This document shows positions 3,601-21,760 of a stretch of DNA of 24,392 nt, piece by piece (position 1 is the first letter of the stretch; each line of letters begins with the position of its first letter). Under the pieces are notes generated by a model, which worked only from the letters and a program-made list of their open reading frames with translations, did not search any database and was not told the origin of the DNA. Source of the DNA: a virus; IMG/VR virus record IMGVR_UViG_3300031722_000166, positions 1 through 24,392 of that record; one strand, 5' to 3'. The translations under genes and the position numbers were made by a program.

Positions 3601-6600
3601 GCTCTCAGCCGTGTCTTTATCCCTTCCCGTCAGGTATTCCCACGCCTGATATATCGGCTGGCTCATGATCTCTCGCTTGGCGTCCATGCGTACTTCCGCA
3701 CGTCGCGCATCCGATTCCTTCTGCAGCTTCTTTATCATCCGGCCGCGCGCGTTGTGCAGCCATTGCATATCACGCAGCCCGCGCGCCTGCAGTTCCTCGA
3801 TCGCCCTATTTGTCGCATCGACGCCGAGCGATTGGTAGGTGGCAAAGTCCTCGGGCGTCATGCCAGCCTGATCGGCGCGCTCGAAGAGCGGCACCATGCT
3901 GCGCCCTTGTTCGGCAAGCTGGATCTGCTCGGTGGTCGCCAGCATGCGGTCGAAGACGCCGCGCACTTCGTCGTTCAGTTCGACGTTAAGGTTCTTGAGG
4001 TCACGATAGACGTTCAACAGCCAGGCGCGGAATCGCTGGAATACGCCGTGCAGTTCAATGCTTGGTGCCTTGCCCTCGAACAGGTAGGACTCGAAACCAC
4101 GGGCAAATTGCTCGTGATATCCGCGCTTTTCCTCGAAGCTGAGATTATTCCACTCGGTGAGACCCTTGACGCCGAACCAGGCGAGTAGCGCGTTGTGATC
4201 GTCGAGGATCTGCTGCTCGCCGGCCGACAGCAGATCGGCACCGTGGATCTCGGCATCCTGCGCCAGGGTATTCGCGAGATCCGTCTGCACTTCAAGGAAG
4301 AAATGCCCCGATTCGTGCAGGAAGGTCGAAAGGTCGGCGTTCTTGAGCAGGGCGATCGTGTTCGTCGCCGGATTGAAGCTGCCGCGTGTGCCGCCCTTAT
4401 CCTGAAAGAAGATTGCGGTGCCGTAGTCGCCAAGGGCACCGAGCGCGCCGGTTGCGCGCGACCAGTAAAGGCCGGCGTAATCTTCGCCGCGCCACTCGCG
4501 GACGCGCGCATGCACGTCGGCGAGCAGCGGCATGACTTGCTGAATCGGTAGGTTACCGCCGGTCGCCGCGGTTAATGCAGTCCATCCCGCAGTTTCCTGC
4601 CCGCCAGCTTTCGCCTTCTCGGCCCAGCCGCGCTTCTGAAATTCTTGAAAGATCGGCTCGTCGAGCGTTGGGCCATTGACCGACAGTTCGCCGTCGGGCA
4701 TGACGGTGAAGGTGAGCGCCGGTTCGGCCAGCAGGCCGGCCTCGATCTGCTCTTTACCGTAAATCTTTATCTTGAGGGTTCCGCCCGGGTTGTAAAACTC
4801 GTCGGGCGCGAGGATGTCAGCGGTTACGCGGTAGCCTGAGAAGTGCCCCAAGGGGCTGTCAACTTCGCGAGTTCTTTCTGCTTGTCCGTCGAGTTGAGTG
4901 GTGATTGCTTCGGACGTTGCGCGTATTCTTTTAAGTAGCCGGGTTGAACGGGGATAACGGTTTCCCGCAGGTGCATCGGATAGGAATTTAGCCTCGGCAT
5001 CATTGATCTCCTGCTCCGACTGTTGCGGAGCCTTAATGTTGATTGTATCCGCTTCGTTGAATTGCGCAAGCAGATCCTCAGGGGTTTGCCGCGTTGCCTG
5101 GTCGAATTGCGCCCCGTTCGCGCGCTCGGCGATCACGCGCAGGGTATGCGCCTTGAAGAACTCCATCGGCGTCATACCGAGCTTGGCTGCCATAACGGAA
5201 GCGAAAGCCTTATGCAGCAAGGCGTCTGTGCGATTAACCGATTCGGTGAAACGCCCGGCCTTTTGCAGTTCGCCGAATACCGCATCCTCGACTTCCTGTG
5301 CTGACGCCTTCCACGCTTCGTCGGCCGACTGTTCGCCAAGAACTCGATCAACTTCTGCCTGCAGCGCGGGCGCTTTCTCCTGCATGTAGGTCTGCGCCTC
5401 GGCCCGGGTGAAGCCTTCGGGGTCGAATTTCAAATGGTCGACAAGCTCGGGCGCGATCGTTGTTGGCGCGATGTTCGCCGCGTACTCGCCGATCGGGATG
5501 CGCACGTCACCGCCAGTGTCGAGCGCTGCCTGAAACTGCTCGGCAACCGTGGGAGAGAGCGCGGCAACTTGCTCGGCGAGGCCAGACTGCTGCAAGGTCT
5601 GTGCGCTGATAAACACAGCATCGGGCGCCGGGCCGTTGTCGGCGACCGCCTTCACGTGCTGCTCGAAGGTTTCCGCGTCGCGCGCGAGCACCTTGCTTGC
5701 AGCCGCCGTTTCATTGATCTTGGCTAGCAGGTCGGCCGTCTGGTTCGCCGTTTCAACTTTGATGTCGTTGCGCGTGGCGACGATCTCGACGCCCTTCATC
5801 AGTGCGACTTGTCCGCCGCCGCCGAATGCCGTAGCAAGGGCCGTTTGCACCGCAGCACCGGGGCGCGCTTTAAGGTAATCGCCGATCGTCTTTTCGGGGT
5901 TGAGCGTCGCCCACTCGTTGAGGTCCTGCAAGTGCGTCGCGATCTGCTCGCCGCCTTGCTCCTTGATCATGTACCCGCCGGCTTTTTTGAGGAAACCGCC
6001 GGGTTTTAGGAGGCTGAATAGCGCTGGCATACCGATCATCTCAGTGCCGGCTTCGATCACGCCTTGCGACGCGCCAAAGGCCAGCGCCTGTGGCACGGGC
6101 ACACTCTTGTCGCGCGCCTCGCCGTAGGCGCTACCACCAGTCGATGCGCCCATACCGGCTAGCATCGGCATCATACTGCCGCCGCTGGCGAGCGCAGCGG
6201 GGAGGAGAATTGCGTTAAGGCCGAGCGACTGCATGCCTGAATACCAGGATGATTCGATCAACCCCTCGGCTTTGGGCATCAAGCTGTCCGCCGTCGCGCG
6301 CGACACGCCACCCATGCGTGCGAAATAATCTGCGATCGGCTTTCTGCCCAGCACCTCGGGGATAAATGTTTCTGCGCCGGCACGCGCAATGCCCCACATA
6401 CCTTCGTTGAACTTGGGCACCGCCGACGCGATAGCCCTGCCGGTGCCAACTTCGAACTTGCCGAGCGAGTAGAGCAGATCCTCGACGCCGGTTAGGTTGC
6501 CGACGTCATCGTGCGCGATCTTTGCCTTATCGACATTGGCAAGCAGAACGGCGGTTACCGGGCTCGTGCGCGCCAGGTTGTCGAAGTTGATCTCGCCCAT

Positions 6601-9012: not shown

Positions 9013-9672
9013 TTAGAACCTTATTCCGTTGCCGAGATCGCTCGATGCGTAACCCGGCGTAGTGTTTGCGCCAATCGCGCCCGTGCTCGGTGTGTTGTTG
9101 ACCGCGCCGGCCTTGTCCATCATGTACCAGGACTGCGCGACCTTGCCGGCGCCGCTGAGTAGCGACGTGCCAGCAGCCGACAAGGGCGAAATACCATCAG
9201 CGGTTGCGTTCTTAATCAGCGCCGAATTGCTGGCGCTCACCGACTCGTTTCTCGCATTCAATGCCTGAATTTTGTAGCCCCAGGCGCTGCGCACTGCATT
9301 CGCGGTGATCTGGTTGCTGTCGATCTCCTTCATGATGTCGGTCGAGGCTTGCACCTCCGCTGCATTACCTACGCCGAGGTCTATGCCATTGGCGGCCATA
9401 CTAGCGCGCTGACTCGACTTCATCATGCCGGCCTTCATCGTCAGTCGGCCGACTTCTTTCTGGCCCGACATCAGCGTTGATTGCGCGCCTAGTTCGGCGA
9501 TCCGTGCGTTTGTGTCGGCTATTCGCGCGTTTGTGTCGGCCATCTCCGATTGAAACTTAAGAGACGACTTCTGTGCGCTGGCTGAAAAGAAGCTGCCGAT
9601 GATTGACGACAGCGCGCCAGCTCCTTGCATGTAGAGCGAACCAGCCGCTGCGGACGATGGATCAAATGCCAT
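9013..9672 (-). CDS. Small internal virion protein (T7 gp14-like role)
   Basis: The protein has 219 residues. It starts with a Gly/Ala/Ser-rich hydrophobic stretch (about 8-32, ALSSIIGSFFSASAQ), then a helical coiled-coil-like part (about 36-130) containing a tandem ADTNARI ADTNARI repeat at 45-58. A Gly/Ser-rich tail follows. Small proteins of this make-up sit between the tail tube gene and the transglycosylase gene in many podoviruses and act as the membrane-associated ejection protein. That role is inferred from position and composition, as sequence similarity to T7 gp14 is not evident by eye. The start is well supported by AAGGAG with 7-base spacing. A copy of the recurrent 12-base element lies just upstream, at 9715-9726. 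Confidence 0.8.
   Translation of the reverse strand: MAFDPSSAAAGSLYMQGAGALSSIIGSFFSASAQKSSLKFQSEMADTNARIADTNARIAELGAQSTLMSGQKEVGRLTMKAGMMKSSQRASMAANGIDLGVGNAAEVQASTDIMKEIDSNQITANAVRSAWGYKIQALNARNESVSASNSALIKNATADGISPLSAAGTSLLSGAGKVAQSWYMMDKAGAVNNTPSTGAIGANTTPGYASSDLGNGIRF
9499..9540. repeat. Tandem 21-base repeat in the small internal virion gene
   Basis: Two adjacent 21-base units at 9499-9519 and 9520-9540 differ at three positions and encode ADTNARI twice. Because the unit is seven codons it fits a heptad in a coiled coil. It looks like a recent in-frame duplication. Confidence 0.8.
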
Positions 9673-9714
9673 GTGCTAACTCCTTCGGCTAGAACGTATC
9701 TCGCCGTCCGCGCT

Positions 9715-9726
9715 CTACGCGCACCC
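9715..9726 (-). promoter_or_regulatory. Recurrent 12-base element, copy 2 (upstream of ejection genes)
   Basis: On the minus strand this reads GGGTGCGCGTAG, one base after the TAA stop of the gp12-like gene and 54 bases before the ATG of the small internal virion gene. It lies in the only real gap between the tail tube and ejection genes. It could give the three ejection genes their own promoter; this is inferred from recurrence and placement. Confidence 0.55.
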
Positions 9727-14133: not shown

Positions 14134-14760
14134 TTACGGATTCATATTTGGGTACATACGTTGCGCCACGGTCGGCGGAGTTGCCCCGCTGGCAGTGCGC
14201 CCGGGCGTGAAGCTGTCTTCACTGATTGCTTTGCCGGCCCGGTAGAACATCCGAATGACTTCGGGATGATTGCCAAGGCCGGTTTGGTCGAGCAGCGCCC
14301 GCAGTTCAGGAGACGCGAATGCATCACGGGCTTTGAAAGCGACGGCAAGGTTTTCCTGCAGCTTGTCGCCGCCGAATTCTTTGTCCGTCTTAGAGTCGCT
14401 CTCCCATTGCGCCGTCGCTTGCGCAACCACTTCGGCTTGATGCGCGGCAATTGCCGGTTGCATCTTGTCGAGGAGTTTTTGCGCTTTGTCCTGCGGTAGA
14501 TCCAGCTCTTTCGCCACTTCGGAATAGGCGCCCACGACTGATGCGTCGAGCGTTACCCCTTCGGGTGCGACGAACTCGTACTTCTCAGGCGCGCCTGTTG
14601 GGGCCGCCGTGGTTTCGGTGCTTGTCGTATCCGCAGCGATTTCAGTGCTGGTTGCTGCAGTTTGGCTGGCCGTATCCGCAGCAGTAGCGGTCGTGCTTGC
14701 CGTGGTCGACGTGGCGCTGTCAGTGGTATTGGTCGCGTCAGTCTGGTTTTCGGTTGTCAT
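14134..14760 (-). CDS. Capsid scaffolding protein
   Basis: The protein has 208 residues. Residues 1 to about 55 are almost entirely Thr, Ser, Ala and Asp (TTENQTDATNTTDSATSTT and similar). Residues 60-208 are helical and acidic, including KYEFVAPEGVTLDASVV and an EVAKELDLPQDKAQKLLDKM segment. Acidic, helical proteins immediately upstream of the capsid gene are scaffolds that guide procapsid assembly and then leave. No serine protease motif is visible, so a fused protease is unlikely. The start overlaps the Bbp19-like gene by 23 bases and has AGAGG upstream. The low-complexity N-terminus is unusual in its length and Thr content. Confidence 0.87.
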   Translation of the reverse strand: MTTENQTDATNTTDSATSTTASTTATAADTASQTAATSTEIAADTTSTETTAAPTGAPEKYEFVAPEGVTLDASVVGAYSEVAKELDLPQDKAQKLLDKMQPAIAAHQAEVVAQATAQWESDSKTDKEFGGDKLQENLAVAFKARDAFASPELRALLDQTGLGNHPEVIRMFYRAGKAISEDSFTPGRTASGATPPTVAQRMYPNMNP

Positions 14761-15064
14761 GTAGCGCCTCTTTGAGCATCACGGAATACAACTCAGGGCA
14801 GAGCGTGTGGATCTTTTCCAGAGTCTTGAACCCTTCGGTCTTTTGCCCGTCCGCGAACGCCATGCTCATCGCGTTGGTGTTGAACGAAGGATGAAAAACC
14901 CGGGCGCGCTCCAGAAGACGCCAAACAATGCGGCGCCCCCGCTTACTGCCCATGAGCCACTTGAAATCCGACTCGTCGGTATCGCGAGCGAGCTTCTGGC
15001 GCTGCGCTGTTTCTGCACGCACTTGCTCTTGGCTCGTCAGATCGTCGGTGTCGTTCGTGTTCAT
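14738..15064 (-). CDS. Bbp19-like phage protein
   Basis: The protein has 108 residues. After a charged N-terminus (1-32) comes DFKWLMGSKRGRRIVWRLLERARVF, then FNTNAMSMAFADGQKTEGFKTLEKIH and CPELYSVMLKEAL, the conserved core of the family named after BPP-1 gene Bbp19. The molecular role is not established; position upstream of scaffold and capsid suggests a part in head assembly. The start region is odd. No Shine-Dalgarno sequence is visible, and a 7-bp hairpin ends one base-step before the ATG. The first 40 bases of leader closely match the leader of the acetyltransferase gene 3.8 kb away. A strong terminator lies just upstream, so this gene must begin a new transcript or depend on read-through. 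Confidence 0.87.
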   Translation of the reverse strand: MNTNDTDDLTSQEQVRAETAQRQKLARDTDESDFKWLMGSKRGRRIVWRLLERARVFHPSFNTNAMSMAFADGQKTEGFKTLEKIHTLCPELYSVMLKEALHDNRKPD

Positions 15065-15083
15065 GCCCGCAATCTATGCGGGC
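15065..15083 (-). promoter_or_regulatory. Hairpin abutting the Bbp19-like start codon
   Basis: On the minus strand GCCCGCA, loop TAGAT and TGCGGGC form a perfect 7-bp stem whose last base directly precedes the ATG at 15064. It occupies the place where a ribosome binding site should be. A 23-base block covering most of it and the first codons (15059-15081) is repeated exactly at 18906-18928 before the acetyltransferase gene. Translational control is inferred. Confidence 0.6.
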
Positions 15084-15092
15084 GCAAAACAG

Positions 15093-15104
15093 GTACGCGC
15101 ACCC
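15093..15104 (-). promoter_or_regulatory. Recurrent 12-base element, copy 3 (start of capsid block)
   Basis: On the minus strand this reads GGGTGCGCGTAC and starts 40 bases before the Bbp19-like ATG. It follows the T-tract of the terminator at 15106-15131 almost at once. A terminator followed by this element and then a gene start is the best positional argument that the element begins transcription. The inner bases GTGCGCGTAC form an imperfect dyad, so binding of a dimeric regulator is an alternative. Confidence 0.6.
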
Positions 15105-15105
15105 C

Positions 15106-15131
15106 AAAAGAAAAGCCGCCCGAAGGCGGCT
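15106..15131 (-). terminator. Intrinsic terminator after head decoration gene
   Basis: On the minus strand AGCCGCC, loop TTCG and GGCGGCT form a perfect 7-bp stem with a stable tetraloop, followed by TTTTCTTTT. It starts about 22 bases after the stop of the head decoration gene. It separates the portal block from the capsid block. Confidence 0.92.
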
Positions 15132-15152
15132 CACGCTGCGCTACTCTTGCGG

Positions 15153-18000: not shown

Positions 18001-18465
18001 CTACTCCCCTGTCACGACGACAATGTCGTCTTCGGTTTGCGCGCGAGAAAGCAGCAAATGCCCCTCGTCGGTGAATTCGGATTCGGCTTGCTCGACGGTC
18101 AGCGCATCGGTCTTGAAGCTCATCGTCAGATAGGTGTCGGCGTGCGCGCGAAAGGCCTGCTTGCGGCCCGCACTGGCGGGGATGAGGTGATAGCCCTGCA
18201 GGTGGATGTCATCGCCGCCTGTGAAGATCGTCACGTCGCCGCTGATGGAGAGGGTTGTTGCGATCTTGATCAGCGCGCCAGTTAGGATGGCCCCAGCGGG
18301 GATGCGGATCGTCCGCGAGTAGATGCCACCATGGAAAAGATGCGCGGTGCGCGTCGGCACTTGGGGTAACTGGCGCAGCCTGGCCTCGCCTAAGCGGACC
18401 AGGTCAAGCACGTCCTTTGCCATAGCGGGCAGGTGCGGCGCGGCCGTGACGAGCGCGGCGGTCAT
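18001..18465 (-). CDS. Cupin-like phage structural protein, function unknown
   Basis: The protein has 154 residues. After a helical start (1-40) the sequence is beta-rich: HLFHGGIYSRTIRIPAGAI, ALIKIATTLSISGDVTIFTG, YHLIPASAGRKQAFRAHADT and LTMSFKTD. Alternating strands with a Pro-Ala-Gly turn resemble a double-stranded beta helix (cupin). A single His-rich metal site is not clearly conserved, so enzymatic activity cannot be claimed. Comparable proteins are found upstream of portal in several podoviruses. The ATG is preceded by CGGAGG at 5 bases and overlaps the acetyltransferase stop by 4 bases (ATGA), so the two products are made in linked amounts and may work together. Confidence 0.72.
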   Translation of the reverse strand: MTAALVTAAPHLPAMAKDVLDLVRLGEARLRQLPQVPTRTAHLFHGGIYSRTIRIPAGAILTGALIKIATTLSISGDVTIFTGGDDIHLQGYHLIPASAGRKQAFRAHADTYLTMSFKTDALTVEQAESEFTDEGHLLLSRAQTEDDIVVVTGE

Positions 18466-18911
18466 GTGAGCCTCCGAAAGAAGACGCTGTTCGTCTGCCG
18501 ATAGGGCTGGCGCGACATGACGTATTCGAGCTTGCTGCCGGCGGGCGCTGTGACAAACAGGCCTTCAGCCCCGAGCGGGGCCGCAAGCGCTTCGGCTTCA
18601 CGCAGCAGGGCTAGGCCCGCGCCGCTTTGGCGACGCGCGCTCGCAACGAAAAACGATTCGGTTGTCGCGATGCGCTTGCCGTAGTGCGGCAGCGTCGAGA
18701 CGACGAAAAGGAGAAAGCCGATCAGCGTGTCGCCCTGGTAGGCCGCGGCGGTATGCAGCGCGCCACTCGCTTCCATCGCCCGGTAAAGGTCAAGCTGCGC
18801 CTCGGCTTCGCCCAGGCCGGCAATAGCCGACTCGGCGCCGTACTCTGCAAGCAGTGCGGCGAGATTGGGCGCGCGTTCGATGTCCGCGACAGTGCAGGGC
18901 GAAATGTTCAT
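18462..18911 (-). CDS. GNAT-family N-acetyltransferase
   Basis: The protein has 149 residues. GDTLIGFLLF (60-69) and TESFFVASARRQSGAGLAL (84-102) are the central GNAT strands and the acetyl-CoA pyrophosphate loop, with the R/Q-x-x-G-x-G pattern at about 94-99. LLREAEALAAPLGAEGLFVTAPAG and YRQTNSVFFRRL complete the fold. The substrate is unknown. Such genes recur in this position in BPP-1-like phages, where they may modify a phage or host protein. The start is odd: no Shine-Dalgarno sequence is seen and a hairpin lies directly before the ATG. The leader copies that of the Bbp19-like gene. The gene begins a new minus-strand segment after the plus-strand lipoprotein gene. Confidence 0.88.
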   Translation of the reverse strand: MNISPCTVADIERAPNLAALLAEYGAESAIAGLGEAEAQLDLYRAMEASGALHTAAAYQGDTLIGFLLFVVSTLPHYGKRIATTESFFVASARRQSGAGLALLREAEALAAPLGAEGLFVTAPAGSKLEYVMSRQPYRQTNSVFFRRLT

Positions 18912-18931
18912 GCCCGCAATCTATGCGCGGG
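18912..18931 (-). promoter_or_regulatory. Hairpin abutting the acetyltransferase start codon
   Basis: On the minus strand CCCGC and GCGGG pair around a 9-base loop, ending one base before the ATG at 18911. A 23-base block covering the loop, one arm and the first codons is identical to that before the Bbp19-like gene. The stem here is shorter (5 bp against 7 bp) because of one changed base next to the block. Confidence 0.5.
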
Positions 18932-18934
18932 TAT

Positions 18935-18963
18935 TTCTAGTACGCGCACCCTGAGGCTATACT
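18935..18963 (+). promoter_or_regulatory. Possible sigma70-type promoter of the lipoprotein gene
   Basis: TATACT at 18958-18963 matches five of six bases of the -10 consensus. A 17-base spacer puts the -35 at TTCTAG (18935-18940), which is a poor match. The lipoprotein ATG lies 27 bases downstream of the -10. The gene needs its own promoter because all neighbours are on the other strand. The spacer contains copy 4 of the recurrent element. Confidence 0.4.
18940..18951 (-). promoter_or_regulatory. Recurrent 12-base element, copy 4 (upstream of acetyltransferase)
   Basis: On the minus strand this reads GGGTGCGCGTAC and starts exactly 40 bases before the acetyltransferase ATG, the same distance as for the Bbp19-like gene. 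The minus strand is non-coding across the adjacent lipoprotein gene, so a fresh transcription start here would be useful. The element also sits inside the spacer of a possible plus-strand promoter. Confidence 0.58.
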
Positions 18964-18989: not shown

Positions 18990-19214
18990 ATGAAAACAAT
19001 CGCATTGGTCACCACTGTCGTGCTGCTCACTGGCTGCGCTTCAGCGAATAGTTACTCGCGCATCGCGGTGCTGCAGAATCCCGAGAGCAAGCAGACTGTC
19101 GAGTGCAGATTCCCCGAGGTAGCGTCTGTTCGCATGAGCAGCCACATCGATACCTGCGTTGCCACCTACGAAAAGGCTGGCTATAAGCTCGTCGCCGACT
19201 CGGCGCGGCCCTAA
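18990..19214 (+). CDS. Small phage lipoprotein on the opposite strand
   Basis: The protein has 74 residues. Residues 1-15 are a signal peptide (MKTIALVTTVVLLTG) ending in lipobox L-T-G-C with Cys16 as the lipidation site. The +2 residue is Ala, so outer-membrane sorting is expected in Gram-negative cells. The mature part has NPESKQTVECR, two cysteines at 39 and 56 that could form a disulfide, and AGYKLVADS. Small lipoproteins with this NP-x-TVEC and AGY pattern are common in proteobacteria and their phages. AAGGAG lies 6 bases before the ATG. It is the only plus-strand gene, and its end overlaps the terminase end by 4 bases. It looks like an independently expressed moron. A role in blocking superinfection, as for the T5 lipoprotein, is possible but not shown. 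Confidence 0.85.
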   Translation: MKTIALVTTVVLLTGCASANSYSRIAVLQNPESKQTVECRFPEVASVRMSSHIDTCVATYEKAGYKLVADSARP

Positions 19215-20792: not shown

Positions 20793-21311
20793 CTAGACGA
20801 GGTCGGCGCCCGGGTTGTTCTCCTCGGCGTCCTTACGCGCCTGCGCCGTGGCGAGGATCGCGGCGAGCTTCGCCGCTACGGCCGAATCGCTCTGCGGCGC
20901 CAGCGTGCCGTCAGGGTTCGACAACTCGAGCGCCTGGCGCTCTCCGTACTTGGCTGGCGCCCACTTCGCAAGGAGCTTAAGCCGAGTATCTGCGCGCAGC
21001 CGAGAGCGTTGCACGCACTCGCCATTTACCATCCAGCCGATATTATCGCCGTCTTTGTTGGTTCGCTCCATCCAGTCGTTTTGCCCATCGTCGACGACGT
21101 TGAGCAGATCCTCCGCAATCGCATCGAAGCCTAGTTCCCGCGCATGCGCGATGCGTGTGGCAAAATCTTTATCTTCGTTGATCCAGTCATAAACCGTGCG
21201 CCACGCTGGCATGTGCTCGTCGCGGCAGATTGCGCGCAAAGTCTCACCGTTTGCTATACGTGCGCAAATCTCGTCAAGAACTTCAGCAGTGCGAATTGAA
21301 AGGCGTCCCAT
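20793..21311 (-). CDS. terS: Terminase small subunit (Sf6-like type)
   Basis: The protein has 172 residues starting MGRLSIRTAEVLDEICARIANGETL. The N-terminal helix-turn-helix (about 8-45, ETLRAICRDEHMPAWRTVYDWI) recognises the packaging site. The middle (about 50-125) is the helical oligomerisation region (ARELGFDAIAEDLL, RSRLRADTRLKLLAKWAPAKYGER). The C-terminal tail, Ala/Glu-rich, would contact the large subunit. The frame is open up to 21548, but the extension overlaps another gene and lacks family resemblance. ATG 21311 lies one base after that gene's stop. A near-copy of the recurrent 12-base element is 42 bases upstream. The adjacent hexamer cluster (21624-21733) could be its DNA target. 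Confidence 0.93.
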   Translation of the reverse strand: MGRLSIRTAEVLDEICARIANGETLRAICRDEHMPAWRTVYDWINEDKDFATRIAHARELGFDAIAEDLLNVVDDGQNDWMERTNKDGDNIGWMVNGECVQRSRLRADTRLKLLAKWAPAKYGERQALELSNPDGTLAPQSDSAVAAKLAAILATAQARKDAEENNPGADLV

Positions 21312-21312
21312 G

Positions 21313-21570
21313 TCAGGAATTCTCGCCCAGTGCTTCGTCCGGTACGCGCACCACGCGAAACGCCACCACGGTGCCGCAGCGCCGACGTCCTGCGCAAATG
21401 TCCCGAACGCTTCGCCGACTGATCTCGAAGACTTGCGACAAGCGCGTATACCCCCAGCCTTCTTCCCGCAGTTCAAGCAATCGATCAACGTCATGATTGC
21501 TGAGTTTTGCGTGCGGATGATCTTCGCCGATACGCAACCCATTTTCACCGATAGCTACGATTTTTTGCAC
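21313..21570 (-). CDS. Small helix-turn-helix (resolvase-like) DNA-binding protein
   Basis: The protein has 85 residues. Residues 23-64 contain LSNHDVDRLLELREEGWGYTRLSQVFEISRRSVRDICAGRRR, which reads as a resolvase or Hin-type helix-turn-helix with a basic end. Small proteins of this type are common directly before terminase genes in podoviruses. The start is GTG at 21570, chosen because AAGGAGAG lies 5 bases upstream; no ATG is available nearby. It could be a transcription regulator of the late genes or an accessory packaging protein. It is the first recognisable protein after the hexamer cluster, so it may bind there. Function is inferred from the motif and location. Confidence 0.8.
   Translation of the reverse strand: MQKIVAIGENGLRIGEDHPHAKLSNHDVDRLLELREEGWGYTRLSQVFEISRRSVRDICAGRRRCGTVVAFRVVRVPDEALGENS
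21342..21353 (-). promoter_or_regulatory. Near-copy of the recurrent 12-base element, before terminase
   Basis: On the minus strand this reads TGGTGCGCGTAC, one mismatch from copies 3 and 4. It starts 42 bases before the terminase small subunit ATG, close to the 40-base spacing of those copies. Unlike the others it lies inside a coding region, where it encodes part of VVRVP, so chance is a real possibility. Confidence 0.3.
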
Positions 21571-21760
21571 GTTGTCTCTCCTTGCAAAAATTTACGAGTT
21601 AAATGAAATTCGGAGTCAATCAACTGCAACCTGCAACTTCCCCTAAAGGGAGAAGTTGCAAAGTTGCAGCTACTTGTTGATTTTTGCGGAATGCAACAAT
21701 TGCAACTTGTTGCATAAAGTTGCCTTTGTTGCACCGTGCGTGTAATTTCTTGCGCGTTCA
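21571..21760 (-). other. Low-GC intergenic stretch between replication and packaging genes
   Basis: This stretch of about 190 bases is visibly richer in A and T than its surroundings. It holds the GTTGCA cluster and inverted repeat listed separately, and the strong ribosome binding site of the helix-turn-helix gene at its end. A weak promoter candidate on the minus strand is TTGACT (21612-21617) with TAAATT about 19 bases on. A 68-codon frame (21761-21555) crosses it, starting at an ATG fused to the primase-helicase stop. I consider that frame doubtful because its Cys-rich reading follows from the hexamers. Confidence 0.6.
21624..21733. repeat. Cluster of GTTGCA/TGCAAC hexamers with large inverted repeat
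   Basis: Perfect hexamers occur at 21625-21630, 21632-21637, 21655-21660, 21663-21668, 21692-21697, 21701-21706, 21709-21714 and 21728-21733, and GTTGCC at 21719-21724. The first four lie in an inverted repeat (21624-21644 pairing with 21647-21669, with small bulges), flanked further out by ATCAAC (21619-21624) and GTTGAT (21676-21681). Spacings between close neighbours are 7-10 bases. The structure could be an operator array, a replication origin or a terminase recognition site. Confidence 0.75.

Follow-up and report, generated by a model that had tools for sequence, protein, structure and literature searches.

The gene for a phage late activator usually lies at the start of the late region. 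P2 Ogr and lambda Q are small regulators at late-gene entry that act on several late units; lambda Q is an antiterminator, and P2 Ogr is a zinc protein that binds near -55. At the middle promoters of T4, MotA and AsiA appropriate sigma, and MotA acts at its box (PMC7403470). In leaderless genes of Deinococcus, a TANNNT hexamer 6-7 bp before the ORF was identified as the -10 element by experiment (PMC12340547), and the lambda cI transcript is a leaderless phage mRNA (PMC9031893). Activator boxes that replace the -35 element and leaderless mRNAs are thus already known.

We analysed a 24.4-kb IMG/VR fragment (24,392 nucleotides, hereafter the window) of a BPP-1-like podovirus, the portal protein of which is 68% identical to bbp21 of BPP-1. 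A preliminary description of this DNA had reported a duplicated leader before two genes and proposed that it is a translational control module, perhaps bound by a phage protein, or a mobile regulatory cassette. We confirmed that the 12-base element GGGTGCGCGTAC is present without mismatch at 15093-15104 and 18940-18951, both on the minus strand, that it begins 40 bases before an ATG, and that a 23-base block CGCATAGATTGCGGGCATGAACA is identical over both start codons. The first 19 bases of this block occur at these two starts only, with a chance expectation of 0.03. The proteins encoded behind the two leaders are indeed unrelated, one being Bbp19-like (PF25181) and the other a GNAT acetyltransferase (PF00583), and a purine-rich ribosome binding site is absent before either ATG.

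Promoter anatomy and start codons

Judged by its sequence, the leader is a putative promoter, which consists of a 12-bp box GGGTGCNCGTACC (-40 to -28, the A of the ATG being +1) and a -10 element TAGATT (-12 to -7). All sites in the window lie on the minus strand. At the bbp19 promoter, the box (15093-15104, -40 to -29) is followed by TAGATT at 15071-15076, and the predicted +1 is the A of the ATG at 15064, so that the Bbp19-like gene (14738-15064) is predicted to be leaderless. An intrinsic-terminator-like hairpin at 15113-15132, which would end the upstream unit, lies just before this box, and the site thus looks like a boundary between transcription units. At the GNAT promoter, the box (18940-18951) and TAGATT (18918-18923) precede the ATG at 18911, again the predicted +1, of the bbp24 counterpart (18462-18911), also predicted to be leaderless. 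At both genes the A of the ATG falls exactly at the start expected from the TAGATT element. Between terL and the GNAT promoter, a small antisense ORF on the plus strand (18990-19214) encodes a lipoprotein-like sequence (MKTIALVTTVVLLTGC...) with no Pfam match; the YecR-like lipoprotein of BPP-1 (bbp28) is on the opposite strand and in a different place.

Three further copies of the element, each before a gene on the same strand, had been overlooked. The terS promoter has the box TGGTGCGCGTAC at 21342-21353, which overlaps the 3' end of the upstream HTH gene, and a weak -10-like GAGAAT at 21319-21324; the small terminase gene (20793-21311, ATG at 21311) is predicted to be leaderless. The box GGGTGCGCGTAG is found both at the bbp12 promoter (9715-9726; -10 element TACGTT at 9693-9698; ATG at 9672) and at the tail-fibre promoter (616-627; -10 element TAGCCT at 594-599; ATG at 567). 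These two genes are leadered and have a Shine-Dalgarno sequence (AAGGAG at the tail-fibre gene), and their boxes, at 9726 and 627, directly follow the stop codon of the preceding gene. A TANNNT-like hexamer is present 16 bases after each box in the window, except that the spacer of terS is one base longer and its hexamer weak. The 12-mer by itself, with two mismatches allowed, is not significant (8 found versus 4.0 expected; 5 of 100 shuffles as high), and the significance of the sites comes from the combination of box, -10 element and position before a gene. The view of the leader as a shared regulatory module holds.

The same signal is widespread in relatives. We took 80 Bbp19 loci from IMG/VR and inspected 59 for the leader; most of these carry the signal upstream of bbp19 at an equal distance. 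In a logo of 23 bbp19 leaders, information is concentrated in GGGTGCNCGTACC (-40 to -28), MATAGATTGCG (-14 to -4) and C-1, and the 12-base spacer contains almost none. T-12, A-11, T-7 and C-1 are each present in 22 of the 23 leaders, and GTGC-N-CGTA within the box is conserved at 91-96% per position. The hexamer at -12 to -7 agrees with the TANNNT of a sigma70-type -10 element, less well at terS. When complete phages and prophages of Betaproteobacteria were scanned with a PWM, sites on the coding strand were found almost only before terS, GNAT (bbp24), bbp19, bbp12 and the fibre gene/bbp9, with 0-1.7 sites expected per genome from shuffles. In about 20 BPP-1-like phages and prophages, the promoter recurs at these five genes. 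BPP-1 is one of them and has four perfect boxes, all before genes (terS, bbp24, bbp19 and bbp9). The 23-base identity reflects two sites that both match the promoter consensus of the family well, and the suggestion of a mobile cassette is not borne out. The record of Limnohabitans phage DC33 (PQ492659, L090) is filed under Inoviridae, although this phage has the gene content of a BPP-1-like podovirus.

Two features of BPP-1 (NC_005357, L088) were noted beside its promoters. With its start annotated at 26318, bbp26 (terS) would begin upstream of the late promoter that serves it. We predict a leaderless start near 26256, by which the annotated gene appears to be about 20 codons too long. At ~6130-6187, a strong terminator-like hairpin (CCCCTGGGGAAG...CTTCCCCAGGGGTTTTT) overlaps the -10 element of the tail-fibre promoter, so that terminator and promoter seem to share sequence; the related phages G004 and G005 partly keep this hairpin.

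To compare start codons, ATG distances were measured in 21 genomes from the start of the 41-base frame. The distance from box to ATG was 40-46 at bbp19, GNAT and terS, with 17 of the 21 bbp19 sites at exactly 41, versus 55-67 at bbp12 and the fibre gene. Since the spacing between the box and the -10 element is constant and the ATG distance varies, the invariant is box to -10 rather than box to ATG. A Shine-Dalgarno-like 4-mer was detected at only 1 of 46 bbp19, GNAT and terS starts, against 14 of 22 bbp12 and fibre starts in the same genomes. An mRNA that begins at the AUG, as the predicted start implies, would account for the absence of a ribosome binding site. From the promoter geometry, we predict that the bbp19, GNAT and terS mRNAs are leaderless; the start of terS is the least certain, because terS promoters have a weak -10 element (GAGAAT in the window).

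Box variation and the bbp27-like HTH protein

The N of the box, at -34, is not the same base in all genomes, yet 100% of site pairs within a genome agree at this position, compared with 34% after permutation of the bases between genomes, done separately for each gene class (z 12.8). Bases -40, -36, -30 and -29 are likewise coherent within genomes, whereas the central spacer and the -10 element are not. Such concerted change at unlinked promoters of one genome would follow if each genome had a single protein that reads them, and the variation of the box therefore points to a genome-specific DNA-binding protein.

The most likely candidate for this reader is the bbp27-like small HTH protein (HTH27) of 78-85 amino acids, encoded in the window at 21313-21570 on the minus strand and 46% identical to bbp27 of BPP-1. 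In box-bearing genomes its gene lies just upstream of terS, between the primase gene and terS. Among all columns of 38 distinct HTH27 proteins, residue 57 (D in the window) has the highest mutual information (MI) with base -34: K is paired with C in 13 cases and with A in one, D with G in 11 of 11, and R with A in 4 of 4. This MI was 1.37 versus 0.48 in simulations in which the base evolved along a protein tree from which the helix had been left out (n=36, limited to boxes that were read automatically), and none of 1500 simulations was as high. Residue 12 in the N-terminal arm (L in the window) covaries with base -29 equally clearly (0/1500 simulations as high), L or I occurring with C and at times T, R with A, and Y with T or A. 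The best of more than 1,500 columns from six other phage proteins reached a corrected MI of 0.62, versus 0.95 for residue 57. Together with the coherence of the box within genomes, this covariation makes it probable that the leader is bound by a phage protein, as had been supposed.

The rules were then applied to further genomes. Single-sequence searches with HTH and GNAT gave few relatives, and 30 further loci were fetched later by profile query; L205 was left out since its apparent HTH is a spurious fragment. The residue-57 rule was correct in 17 of 24 cases (permuted mean 8.4, p 0.0004) and the residue-12 rule in 27 of 30 (permuted mean 14.1, p < 0.0001), in a test that was not fully blind, as some boxes were read by eye from Bbp19 leaders and some loci are close relatives. 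The seven failures at residue 57 occurred mostly where base -35 or -32 had also changed, so that residue and base do not correspond one to one. At several HTH27 loci no site passed the threshold, in many cases because the available sequence was short or the box more diverged. Among loci L211-L244, a subgroup with H at residue 57 shows a diverged box GTATCCGTGA and often GTG starts directly after the -10 element; it forms another specificity class within this system.

An AF2 model of HTH27 showed a confident core of three helices (25-36, 41-48 and 52-59), with residue 57 in the third. Foldseek gave no match below 1e-3, but the DNA-binding domains of Hin and resolvase were among the neighbours; the Pfam, PHROGs and PDB matches were HTH/resolvase-like, and a sequence search of solved structures returned weak generic HTH matches only. 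Since Hin and resolvase domains read DNA by an arm and a recognition helix, the resemblance would fit the two-point code. If the code is true, bbp27 and the HTH27 of the window would each prefer the box of its own genome (GGTGCCCGTGCC versus GGTGCGCGTACC).

Between the primase and HTH27 genes, the window contains an AT-rich stretch (21600-21760) with repeated GCAACTT/AGTTGC motifs, and BPP-1 has inverted GAGGCAAACGAGGCAA repeats in the same place (26610-26720). This stretch is possibly a replication origin.

Proposed activation of late units and alternative readings

We consider it highly probable that these sites are phage late promoters with a box read by HTH27 and a host-type -10 element, which would activate leaderless and leadered units late in infection. 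The box (-40 to -28) would replace the -35 element, at a fixed spacing from the host-type TANNNT (-12 to -7). Transcription is predicted to begin at, or a few bases from, the A of the ATG at bbp19, GNAT and terS, the messages of which would be translated without a Shine-Dalgarno sequence; the same promoter with an ordinary leader would drive bbp12 and the tail-fibre gene. In HTH27, recognition-helix residue 57 would set the preference at base -34 and arm residue 12 that at base -29. As its gene comes after the primase gene and before terS, HTH27 probably accumulates from early transcription before the late genes are expressed, and would then switch them on by recruiting host RNA polymerase to the late units.

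The sign of this regulation bears on the first alternative, in which HTH27 reads the same box but represses or times the promoters. A protein bound to the box, which extends over the -35 region, could keep sigma from its site, and the same covariation would be expected, because covariation indicates binding and not its sign. However, no TTGACA-like hexamer was found 16-18 bp upstream of the -10 element: GCNCGT occupies -36 to -31, the box region matches TTGACA at 0-1 of 6 positions, and a sigma70 promoter scan detected none at these sites in the window. Since host sigma would find no -35 hexamer within the box, activation via HTH27 in the manner of MotA is the simplest reading. The location of the HTH27 gene, where the late region begins, is moreover typical of late activators, and BPP-1 has a separate CI/Cro pair. 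We regard repression by HTH27 as unlikely.

The original proposal was a translational operator formed by an RNA hairpin at the start codon, perhaps with a phage protein bound to it. In its favour, a Shine-Dalgarno sequence is missing at both starts, and the claim that both copies form the hairpin stands for the bbp19 copy, where GCCCGCA/UGCGGGC folds well (-26 kcal/mol for 65 nt, z -3.2). It fails for the GNAT copy, whose most stable fold is another one and does not stand out (-20.3 kcal/mol, z -1.2). The stem is not conserved either: in 23 relatives, 53.4% of the stem positions were paired versus 52.5% with shuffled columns, and 195 of 500 shuffles were as high, which is what the preliminary description had named as evidence against its proposal. 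Furthermore, the spacing between box and -10 element is kept where the ATG is 20 nt further away, often with a Shine-Dalgarno sequence; the hairpin lies upstream of the predicted transcription start; and the coherence within genomes is in the box, not in the stem. A hairpin operator is thus very improbable. What remains of translational control is that start-codon recognition would be unusual, though not through an RNA stem-loop.

A promoter for an unrecognised phage sigma factor or RNA polymerase would account for the non-canonical -35 region at every site, but it is equally hard to credit, since the annotation of BPP-1 contains no gene for either, the -10 element is of the host type TANNNT, and HTH27 residues account for the variation of the box. 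That the box is an operator at which the prophage CI/Cro repressor silences late promoters has a parallel in epsilon15, where repressor sites are annotated upstream of terS, of the portal operon and of the tailspike gene, but it is extremely unlikely, because the epsilon15 sites are an unrelated palindrome ATTACCnnnnnGGTAAT, cI/cro of BPP-1 lack the box while its only four perfect boxes precede late genes, and the box tracks HTH27 residues.

Relation to described regulators

In the literature searched, which included few subscription papers, neither these promoters nor this bbp27 were described, and we found no account of the regulator family, its recognition code, or the combination of box and leaderless start in a phage late regulon. 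The BPP-1 family is the home of diversity-generating retroelements, and the present results provide its first predicted late regulon with genes, promoters and regulator. They also offer a natural protein-DNA recognition code drawn from dozens of phage genomes, and reading the promoter corrects start codons such as that of bbp26 in BPP-1. If true, the expression of abundant late structural and packaging genes from leaderless mRNAs would be out of the ordinary, and one may ask how ribosomes come to prefer such messages at the late stage of infection.

The position of the box and its covariation with the putative reader would place these promoters with the MotA type, in which a box takes the place of the -35 element. 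Unlike MotA, HTH27 shows no MotA homology in its Pfam, PHROGs and PDB matches, and no relative of MotA or AsiA was identified here; it resembles the DNA-binding domains of Hin and resolvase instead. The box is GC-rich, lies at -40 to -28 and serves late structural genes, and several of the transcripts are predicted to be leaderless. As in the leaderless genes of Deinococcus and in lambda cI (PMC12340547, PMC9031893), the -10 element directly precedes the start codon and a Shine-Dalgarno sequence is absent; in contrast to those cases, the arrangement would here belong to a promoter with an activator box that drives packaging and structural genes of a phage, and leadered copies of the same promoter exist in the same genome.

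HTH27 is comparable to P2 Ogr and lambda Q in that it is small, is encoded at late-gene entry and would act on several late units, but no sequence relation to either was seen in the family searches. It is rather likely that HTH27 represents an undescribed class of late regulator, a stand-alone HTH of the Hin/resolvase type with a residue-base code, which would replace recognition by sigma region 4 on the host polymerase and drive packaging and capsid genes as leaderless mRNAs. With the DNA-binding domains of Hin and gamma-delta resolvase it shares a three-helix HTH with an N-terminal arm and a specificity that appears to reside in the arm and the recognition helix, whereas it is free of a recombinase catalytic domain and would be used at promoters.
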